Origin: a virus
DNA: 42,173 nt
Strand: one strand, 5' to 3'
Virus record (IMG/VR): IMGVR_UViG_3300048103_000988
Coordinates: 1-42,173 of that record
In this document: positions 81 through 3,806 of the stretch, piece by piece
Layout: each line of letters opens with the position of its first letter
How positions within the stretch are numbered: position 1 is the first letter of the stretch
Notes under the pieces: generated by a model
The model's input: only the letters and a program-made list of their open reading frames with translations
Told to the model about the DNA's origin: nothing
The model's database searches: none
Position numbers and translations under genes: made by a program

Positions 81-974
81 ATGTCTTTAAGTAATTTAAA
101 ATCTAGTCGTGGCTCGTCAATCGACAAACTCGTTCAAGCAGCAGAAGCTGTATCTCAGAAAGCAGAAACAAAATCATACGGTGATGACCGTTTTTGGAAA
201 CCCTCACGTGATAAAGCTGGTAATGGCTATGCAGTAGTTCGTTTCCTTCCACCCAAGGAAGGTGAAGATCTACCGTGGGCACGTTATTGGGATCATGGTT
301 TTCAAGGTCCAACCGGTATGTGGTATATCGAAAACTCATTGACTTCTATTGGACAGGATGATCCAGTTTCAGAAGCAAACACCATTCTATGGAATAGTGG
401 TCGAGATGAAGATAAAGCACTTGCTCGTGAACGTAAGCGTCGTCTACATTATGTATCAAATATCCTTGTTATCTCGGATCCTTCTAACCCAGAGAATGAA
501 GGTAAAGTATTCCTTTATAAGTTTGGTAAGAAGATCTTTGATAAGATTATGGATGTAATGCAACCTCAATTCCAAGATGAAGATCCTGTCAACCCTTATG
601 ATTTCTGGGAAGGTGCTGACTTCAAGATTAAGATTCGTAAGGTTGAAGGTTGGGTTAACTACGACAAGTCAGAGTTTGGTAGTCAAGCAGCTCTGTATAA
701 CTCAGACGAAGAAAAGCTAGAAGAAGTATATTCGAAGGTTCATTCTTTAACTGATTTTACTAAGCCTGAAAACTATAAGTCTTATGCAGAATTGAAAGCT
801 AAGTTCAATAAGGTATTGGGTGTTGATGCGGGTGAAGTAGCTGCAGCTCCTGTAGTAGCTCAATCAGTTGCTGAACCAGCCATGGCTGCTGAATCTGCTC
901 CGGTAGGTAATACTGCTGAAGCTGAAGAAGATGATACCCTCAGTTATTTTGCTAAGCTAGCTCAAGAATCATAA
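81..974 (+). CDS. 32: gp32 single-stranded DNA binding protein, cysteine-free
   Basis: This is the T4 gp32 homologue, which coats single-stranded DNA cooperatively during replication, recombination and repair and binds its own mRNA in T4. At 297 residues it is close to T4's 301. The N-terminus carries a basic/serine patch (LKSSRGSS, 6-13) in the place of the T4 cooperativity motif. The OB-fold core shows AGNGYAVVRFLP (46-57), WYIENS (81-86) and NPENEGKVFLYKFGKKIFDKI. The C-terminus is an Ala-rich linker followed by an acidic tail (AEAEEDD), which in T4 recruits partner proteins. The T4 zinc site (His64, Cys77, Cys87, Cys90) keeps only the His (His72); the protein contains no cysteine, so it should not bind zinc that way. 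GGAGA at 69-73 fixes the start. Three TAA codons stand in tandem at 972-980. The gene is monocistronic, with a promoter motif before it and a terminator after it. Confidence 0.95.
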   Translation: MSLSNLKSSRGSSIDKLVQAAEAVSQKAETKSYGDDRFWKPSRDKAGNGYAVVRFLPPKEGEDLPWARYWDHGFQGPTGMWYIENSLTSIGQDDPVSEANTILWNSGRDEDKALARERKRRLHYVSNILVISDPSNPENEGKVFLYKFGKKIFDKIMDVMQPQFQDEDPVNPYDFWEGADFKIKIRKVEGWVNYDKSEFGSQAALYNSDEEKLEEVYSKVHSLTDFTKPENYKSYAELKAKFNKVLGVDAGEVAAAPVVAQSVAEPAMAAESAPVGNTAEAEEDDTLSYFAKLAQES

Positions 975-999: not shown

Positions 1000-1023
1000 G
1001 GAGTCCTTCGGGGCTCCTTTTTT
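1000..1023 (+). terminator. Rho-independent terminator of gp32 (UUCG loop)
   Basis: GGAGTCC (1000-1006) pairs with GGGCTCC (1011-1017) around a TTCG tetraloop, giving a seven-pair stem with one G-U wobble, followed by six T. It lies 26 bases after the gp32 stop and is a textbook intrinsic terminator. It isolates gp32 from the small gene downstream. Confidence 0.93.
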
Positions 1024-1024
1024 G

Positions 1025-1110
1025 TATATATAAAATAGGTTAGTCCACTTCAGCGACTCGCATTTGTTCATGCGTTAAAAGACTACTTCAATCCTAACTA
1101 GGAGAAGTAT
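1025..1110 (+). promoter_or_regulatory. Structured mRNA leader of the YRG peptide, riboswitch-like; AT-rich promoter candidate at 1025-1037
   Basis: Right after the gp32 terminator lies an AT-rich box (TATATATAAAATA, 1025-1037) that could be the promoter; it is not an exact TATAAATA. The following leader can fold. TAGTC (1041-1045) pairs with GACTA (1081-1085), enclosing a CGCAT/ATGCG hairpin (1059-1063 with 1070-1074). TACTTC (1084-1089) pairs with GAAGTA (1104-1109) and CCT (1093-1095) with AGG (1100-1102) around an AACT loop, burying the AGGAG ribosome binding site. A second ACTTC copy (1047-1051) and a second GACT copy (1055-1058) offer alternative pairings. The outer stem and the SD hairpin share bases 1084-1085, so they compete. 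A short gene behind a foldable leader recalls the glutamine-binding Downstream-peptide riboswitches of marine cyanobacteria and one of their phages, but I do not see their consensus bases, so the ligand is unknown. Confidence 0.45.
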
Positions 1111-1272
1111 ATGAACACTTTAATGTATCGTGGCGCAAGCCAACAAGTAAAAAACACAAAGGTAAACAGCGAATCAAAGAAAACTTATAGAGGAGCTTTT
1201 TACAAAAGATTGCCAAAGCAAGAAAGGAAGGAAAGTTTACACACGTATCGTGGTGTAGAATTTAGTTCTTAG
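1111..1272 (+). CDS. Small YRG-repeat protein (DUF4278-like)
   Basis: A 53-residue basic protein with three copies of a Tyr-Arg-Gly motif at exactly 20-residue spacing: Y6-R7-G8, Y26-R27-G28 and Y46-R47-G48. The copies read LMYRGAS, KTYRGAFY and HTYRGVEF. The YRG pattern in a short protein matches DUF4278, a family of unknown function known mainly from cyanobacteria and their phages. AGGAG at 1100-1104, seven bases before the ATG, fixes the start. The gene has its own leader (1025-1110) and its own terminator (1279-1305), so it is expressed as a separate unit between gp32 and the converging tape-measure gene. No catalytic motif, signal peptide or membrane segment is visible. The family call rests on the motif only; the function is unknown. 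Confidence 0.8.
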   Translation: MNTLMYRGASQQVKNTKVNSESKKTYRGAFYKRLPKQERKESLHTYRGVEFSS

Positions 1273-1278
1273 TATTAT

Positions 1279-1305
1279 GGGGGAACGCAATGTTCCCCCT
1301 TTTTT
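1279..1305 (+). terminator. Strong intrinsic terminator between converging genes
   Basis: GGGGGAAC (1279-1286) and GTTCCCCC (1292-1299) form a perfect eight-pair stem with a five-base loop, followed by six T (1300-1305). The T run is on the plus-strand side, so it ends the YRG peptide transcript. The T run overlaps the stop codon of the minus-strand tape-measure gene. On the minus strand the same hairpin is present but without a clear U tract, so it would be a weaker terminator in that direction. Confidence 0.93.
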
Positions 1306-3486: not shown

Positions 3487-3806
3487 TATTTCTTACCTTT
3501 CATTGCTTGTGTACCAAAGAAAGCAGCAACGATACCAGCAACAGCAACAAAATATGTTGGTGCCATATCGCCTAGCGTTTCTTGTGCTTGATCTAAACCA
3601 GCTAATGATGCAATAACAACAGCGAATGGATATAATAATAATCCACCAAGGGCAAACCATGTCATGTTACGTTGTGCATCACGCATTGCATCAGCATCTT
3701 CTAACTCTTTACGTTTAAACTCTAAGTATAATGCCTCTTCAGCCGCACTTACTTTACCATCACCATTTGTATCTGCTGGATGAAATACTTTTTCTTCTTC
3801 TGACAC
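3486..3806 (-). CDS. EF-hand protein with two membrane spans; holin candidate
   Basis: A 106-residue protein with a GTG start at 3806-3804, supported by AAGGAG eight bases upstream. Residues 12-23 (DTNGDGKVSAAE) match a canonical calcium-binding EF-hand loop, with D12, N14, D16, K18, S20 and E23 at the coordinating positions. A charged helix (28-47) leads into two hydrophobic segments, about 50-70 and 83-101, and the protein ends in a basic KGKK tail. Only one EF-hand is present. Small two-span proteins with a charged end are typical of holins, and related proteins sit in the structural regions of other marine phages, but no lysis enzyme is visible nearby. It lies between gp26 and the tape measure and is coupled to the 38-residue membrane peptide. 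EF-hand: clear. Membrane topology: likely. Holin role: a guess. Confidence 0.8.
   Translation of the reverse strand: MSEEEKVFHPADTNGDGKVSAAEEALYLEFKRKELEDADAMRDAQRNMTWFALGGLLLYPFAVVIASLAGLDQAQETLGDMAPTYFVAVAGIVAAFFGTQAMKGKK

Follow-up and report, generated by a model that had tools for sequence, protein, structure and literature searches.

A conserved structured RNA leader upstream of YRG peptide genes in T4-like marine phages, a candidate glutamine riboswitch

Upstream of genes for very small peptides with YRG motifs, T4-like marine phages carry a conserved structured RNA with a hairpin over the start site of translation. The leader is real and conserved, and it is very probably a structured cis-regulatory element. 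That it works as a metabolite riboswitch seems fairly likely, and L-glutamine, proposed from the gene link, would be the most likely ligand, with chances about even. The best explanation overall is a translational glutamine riboswitch, distinct from both known classes, that would control the YRG peptide; we hold it at evenly balanced probability because start-site control of the peptide holds across the ligand question. The fuller proposal, a third natural class of glutamine riboswitch with a fold unrelated to types I and II, found in T4-like phages that infect marine heterotrophs and interchangeable with those two types before peptides of one YRG family, is tentative and falls a little short of an even chance. 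If true, the leader would be a third RNA solution to the glutamine signal, through which phages of marine heterotrophs time a tiny peptide of a family tied to cyanobacterial nitrogen control; even with a ligand other than glutamine, it would be an undescribed conserved cis-regulatory RNA. The original prediction for this DNA had proposed a riboswitch-like leader before a YRG peptide, possibly of a new class, and this part stood, whereas the specific enclosed fold and the cyanobacterial setting that came with it did not.

The window, that is, the whole stretch of DNA analysed, is a 42,173-base virus record, in which the leader lies between a gene 32-like (gp32) gene and a 53-aa YRG open reading frame (ORF). 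The features are as follows:

81..974, plus strand: gene 32-like single-strand DNA-binding protein (PF08804, E 5.3e-44; phrog_224, E 8e-114), the upstream neighbour, given as context only
1000..1017, plus strand: terminator of the upstream gene (fold z -3.28)
1025..1032, plus strand: putative T4 late-promoter-like -10 box TATATATA, with 7 of the 8 letters of TATAAATA
1042..1045, plus strand: 5′ arm of P1, AGTC (covariation), with an invariant T just before it at 1041
1055..1058, plus strand: 3′ arm of P1, GACT (covariation)
1059..1063, plus strand: 5′ arm of P2, CGCAT, invariant in 44 of 44 aligned leaders and predicted by RNAalifold
1064..1069, plus strand: loop of P2, NNGTTC (leader alignment)
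1070..1074, plus strand: 3′ arm of P2, ATGCG, invariant across the aligned leaders
1075..1082, plus strand: conserved single-stranded linker TTAAAAGA (leader alignment)
1084..1089, plus strand: 5′ arm of P3, the start-site hairpin (stem in 44 of 44 leaders, 11 types of arm pair)
1100..1104, plus strand: ribosome-binding site AGGAG, within P3, about 94% paired by prediction in the window leader
1104..1109, plus strand: 3′ arm of P3 (stem in 44 of 44 leaders)
1111..1272, plus strand: 53-aa DUF4278-like peptide with three YRG motifs (PF14105, E 6.4e-5), with a third-position excess among relatives; as predicted, a small gene with its own terminator
1279..1299, plus strand: terminator of the peptide gene (fold z -4.04)

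The core of the leader keeps a fixed order: the P1 hairpin, the CGCAT-NNGTTC-ATGCG hairpin (P2), TTAAAAGA, and then the hairpin that hides the ribosome-binding site. We collected 47 distinct leader sequences with this core, from 99 occurrences among which one contig may recur under several ids, and a YRG (DUF4278-like) peptide gene of 18-54 aa follows 45 of them; the other two (L145 and L164) are chance matches to the core and were dropped. A first pattern scan of viral contigs, in which the P2 arms were mostly free, returned 43 stretches, all followed by a YRG peptide except one that was left out as a chance match (L135), and each of the 42 YRG-linked matches carries CGCAT/TGCG despite that freedom. 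The pattern of a second scan (84 stretches) prescribes most of P2 and its loop, and is therefore biased toward the canonical form. In a third scan only the linker and P3 were prescribed, and 31 of its 37 stretches are canonical. The remaining six (L348-L353) share one variant, which has lost the A of the P2 3′ arm but kept CGCA/TGCG, has TGAAAA in place of TTAAAA and still precedes a YRG peptide; it offers a handle on how much change the core tolerates. The working alignment (A1) holds 44 distinct leaders, one further leader (L143), cut at a contig end, being left out. A covariance model (R1) finds a single copy in the window (76.4 bits), with the next match at chance level, and 11 phage records each contain a single exact copy of the core. 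Among bacterial genome contigs the exact core pattern gave a single match (L138), in a contig of a Rhodobacteraceae bin, and bacterial genomes do not seem to carry the motif in its exact form. In blastn searches of 50,697 phage records, neither the window region nor any of three other leader types turned up a convincing leader relative, so that, at that sensitivity, no isolate is known to carry it.

Supplied with the 44 distinct leaders and no structure, RNAalifold returned exactly P1 and P2. P1 is a local hairpin (1042-1045 with 1055-1058), fully paired in 40 of the 44 leaders and with three of its four pairs in the rest, against a mean of 21.1 and a maximum of 28 in shuffled data, a count to which the promiscuous arms GGTT and GATT contribute little. 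All four pairs show changes on both sides in a model-fitted alignment of 46 distinct rows, which itself leans toward the structure; the 38 both-side cells compare with a shuffled mean of 9.4, and none of 500 shuffles reached as high, in statistics that ignore relatedness. The swap from AGTC/GACT to GATC/GATC is found in L138/L141/L157, in L142 and in L159/L174, with different peptide types, which argues for repeated events, and L147 holds a G-U intermediate. The compensatory changes to be sought in homologous leaders before other YRG peptides are thus present in P1. P2, the predicted CGCAT/ATGCG hairpin (1059-1063 with 1070-1074), is found in all 44 leaders; since it shows no variation, covariation is neutral on it. 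A different fate met the enclosing stem proposed around it, TAGTC (1041-1045) with GACTA (1081-1085), which can form in the window but is complete in only 9 of the 44 leaders, with no both-side change and pairing no better than shuffled. GACT is indeed duplicated (1055-1058 and 1081-1084), and across the leaders AGTC (1042-1045) has kept the first copy as its partner; an enclosed fold in competition with the start-site hairpin is confined to leaders of the window type. Single-sequence folding is weak or ordinary (z -1.2 to -1.6), so it is the comparative data that reveal a signal which the window alone would not have shown.

The same comparisons weigh on two readings in which the core would not act as a folded RNA. 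The palindrome CGCAT-N6-ATGCG, invariant in the 44 aligned leaders, could be a DNA operator or promoter-associated site, but we consider this very improbable given the RNA-type compensatory changes in P1 and P3, the L348-L353 variant, whose palindrome is shorter and whose hairpin is kept, and a conserved stretch bounded by the expected start of the transcript and the start codon. It is even harder to believe that the core is coding, either as an upstream frame VHALK(D/E) or as a minimal leader ORF, AUG CGU UAA, for attenuation. Both are open in the canonical core, but VHALK has no shared start codon or ribosome-binding site, and the base lost in L348-L353 removes both AUG CGU UAA and the frame from a leader that still has P1, P3 and its YRG peptide.

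The structured leader thus extends to the start of translation, where the predicted nine-pair hairpin over AGGAG forms part of the lowest-energy fold (TACTTC 1084-1089 with GAAGTA 1104-1109, plus TCC 1092-1094 with GGA 1101-1103). This P3 stem is present in all 44 leaders and has been rebuilt with quite different arms, such as TACTTC/GAAGTA, ATCGTA/TACGAT and CATTGAA/TTCGATG, 11 types of arm pair in total. By pattern, the ribosome-binding site falls inside P3 in 43 of the 44 leaders, and in 34 of the 44 the hairpin also covers the beginning of the start codon. The site is predicted to be 94% paired in the window and, as a mean over the leaders, 75%. No conserved helix beyond P1 and P2, and no conserved alternative pairing able to open P3, was found in the leader set. 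A pseudoknot between the P1 loop and TTAAAAGA was dropped, as the two are complementary, by eye, in some leaders only. In the longest fold the P2 loop (GTTCAT) pairs with the beginning of the ORF (ATGAAC in the window), but that beginning varies among relatives.

These elements could form a cis-acting RNA switch of T4-like marine phages that works at the level of translation. The 5′ part of the transcript would fold into the adjoining P1, which covaries, and P2, which is invariant, followed by TTAAAAGA; P3 would hide the ribosome-binding site and keep the YRG peptide off by default, and a ligand bound by the P1-P2-TTAAAAGA core would destabilize P3 and so allow translation, a direction modelled on the type 2 glutamine riboswitch. 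At about 75 nt, the leader is small enough for direct in-line probing and crystallography.

The transcript itself probably begins just upstream of the motif, at a phage late promoter. We take TATAAATA to be the T4 late-promoter box, and of 50 distinct flanks 15 have it exactly, in 14 cases 25-29 nt upstream of CGCAT. At least seven of its eight letters are matched in 22 of the 50 flanks (null mean 4.0, maximum 12), and at most five in 16 others. This nearly fixed spacing points to a likely start close to P1. PMC9004378 gives this box as TATAAAT.

The case for glutamine comes from the gene that the leader precedes. The window peptide scores 23.7 bits with PF14105 (DUF4278), just under the cut-off of 25.3, and of seven relatives six score 14.9-24.4 bits and one has no match, while peptides linked to type-I aptamers reach 31.2 (L271), 26.5 (L275) and 25.7 bits (L291). 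According to PMC6316151, DUF4278 spans the N-terminal part of IF17, a glutamine-synthetase inactivating factor, and DUF4278 genes are the main genes behind both types of glutamine aptamer in cyanobacteria. The suspected link with glutamine riboswitches was borne out in other marine phages, where the YRG peptide family stands behind genuine RF01704 (L227; 42.6 bits, cut-off 33) and RF01739 aptamers. A type-I aptamer pattern matches at least 120 stretches, of which 80 were listed and examined, and in 23 of the 80 a YRG ORF lies 40-250 nt downstream. These 23 ORFs occur in the 17,640 nt that follow the listed aptamers, versus a single ORF in the 1.32 million strand-nt outside them; by reading, this exception (L287) is the riboswitch-linked gene with another start; among the loci of the type-I matches listed, 23 of 24 small YRG ORFs directly follow a glutamine aptamer. 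Of 14 such loci given to Rfam (13 of the 23 YRG-linked ones, and L287), RF01739 scores above its cut-off in 12 and below it in L264 and L281. HMMs of the motif-linked peptides recovered mostly riboswitch-linked ORFs from 11,961 candidates; the best match of the short profile, counted there as background, is the RF01704-linked peptide of L227, and two other weak matches (L232_+1170 and L239_-5044) are true background. Among the stretches listed (L228-L307), phage type-I aptamers also precede several further kinds of short basic peptide, which means that glutamine riboswitches have targets besides YRG.

Because the same peptide family follows glutamine-I and glutamine-II riboswitches in other marine phages, glutamine appears the likeliest ligand, and the simplest reading is that one YRG peptide family is under glutamine control by three different RNAs. 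A riboswitch for another signal or metabolite of nitrogen state, such as 2-oxoglutarate or another amino acid, is unlikely in our estimation: the fold is new and lacks known glutamine-binding nucleotides, and only the gene link points to glutamine, but that link is specifically to both glutamine classes. The leader is in turn a way into the function of YRG/DUF4278 peptides, so tightly linked to glutamine aptamers among the phage loci listed.

None of the known RNA families accounts for the motif. At gathering score, no Rfam 15 family was found at the motif in the window or in the motif-bearing loci among the 17 scanned, and in 11 loci of motif records no match appeared there up to E 10; the near-misses CrcZ, TarB and DapZ on the window align mainly to the two terminators. 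RF01739 and RF01704 were each absent from the 11 motif records, in searches that detected their positive controls (phage Melnitz and L227, respectively), and neither matches in the window, in line with the earlier remark that the known consensus is not evident. The motif shares with glutamine-II (RF01704), whose Downstream-peptide layout had been invoked for it with reason, a short leader, start-site control and a small DUF4278/YRG-like peptide downstream, but it has no covariance match in the window up to E 10 (gathering score 33), and helices and conserved letters differ. In glutamine-II, PMC6698751 describes a 5′ CGUUC pseudoknot strand that pairs with GGAACG. By reading of the 44-leader alignment, no CGUUC strand lies 5′ of P1, where conservation is limited to the T next to P1, and the window leader has no GGAAC downstream. 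CGCA directly follows the first hairpin in both the motif (1059-1063 in the window) and the RF01704 consensus, a likeness of four letters that may be chance; in glutamine-II it is part of the binding-site strand (PMC6698751). Glutamine-I (glnA, RF01739) also precedes peptides with one to three YRG motifs in marine phages, and in Melnitz, by reading, a start-site hairpin follows it; the motif, in contrast, has no RF01739 match (gathering score 35) and two adjoining hairpins instead of a three-way junction. As the CGUUC/GGAACG helix, the glutamine-binding element of both known classes, was not seen in the motif, a glutamine site there would have to be a new solution. The gifB/IF17 leader and the cyanobacterial DUF4278 genes come close in that DUF4278 forms part of IF17 and glutamine aptamers are linked mainly to genes of that family (PMC6316151), but the RNA is different, the peptides of the phages, a mere 18-54 aa long, show no evident IF C-terminal part, and the motif hosts are probably not cyanobacteria. 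Phage glutamine riboswitches were already known (PMC9004378), a pelagimyophage survey reported no riboswitches (PMC7029224), and the motif was not found described in open-access literature on glutamine, phage and pelagiphage riboswitches, a third glutamine class or viromes.

Instead of a metabolite aptamer, a conserved leader of this kind could also be a translational operator, the target of an RNA-binding protein of the phage or its host. T4-group phages use such operators, for instance those of gp32 and RegA, two small hairpins whose loop and stem do not vary in sequence are what a protein site typically looks like, the P2 stem, loop and linker are nearly invariant in sequence, and in the window the motif adjoins gene 32. 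But gp32 lies next to the motif in no more than 13 of 46 distinct loci, and in both orientations, so the association is not fixed; related peptides elsewhere stand behind metabolite riboswitches and not protein operators, and each of the 11 records has a single exact copy, where sites of a shared regulator often recur. We therefore regard the protein operator as rather unlikely and keep the riboswitch as the preferred reading. The window gp32 itself has only about 54% identity to the closest phage records, among them Methylophilales phage Melnitz, Pelagibacter phage HTVC008M and cyanophages.

The motif-bearing phages are T4-like. Most cyanomyophages carry psbA; this gene was found in none of 12 records searched, 10 of them motif-bearing (six of these at least 110 kb), and its absence from all 10 makes cyanobacterial hosts, the setting first implied, unlikely. 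In L101, the capsid protein encoded beside the motif is closest (67-70%) to those of large phages of Vibrio, Sinorhizobium and Pseudomonas. Leader and peptide would thus move together through T4-like phages whose hosts are probably proteobacteria.

Melnitz (L139, MZ577097.1), a T4-like phage of a marine heterotroph, likewise has a glutamine riboswitch (PMC9004378), but of RF01739 (52.8 bits) and not of the new motif, and its next small ORF has no YRG. Its riboswitch (3613-3661) overlaps the annotated 3′ end of the tmRNA and lies 22 nt upstream of an unannotated 32-aa basic ORF (3684-3782) that resembles the peptide of the L251 type-I aptamer; control of this peptide, rather than of ssrA, is more likely. 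Downstream of the motif, several of the phages carry freshwater-2 RNA (RF02980), a separate element of other structure and position, about 125 nt after the YRG start codon in L101, L134/L190 and L194 and about 690 nt after it in L119, which suggests runs of small genes controlled by leaders. Matches resembling the ROSE_3 thermosensor occur in L185 (1704-1772, 37.3 bits) and L192 (1254-1319, 32.8 bits; cut-off 43), and an ORF that is hsp20-like by eye lies downstream of the motif in L148 and L150.
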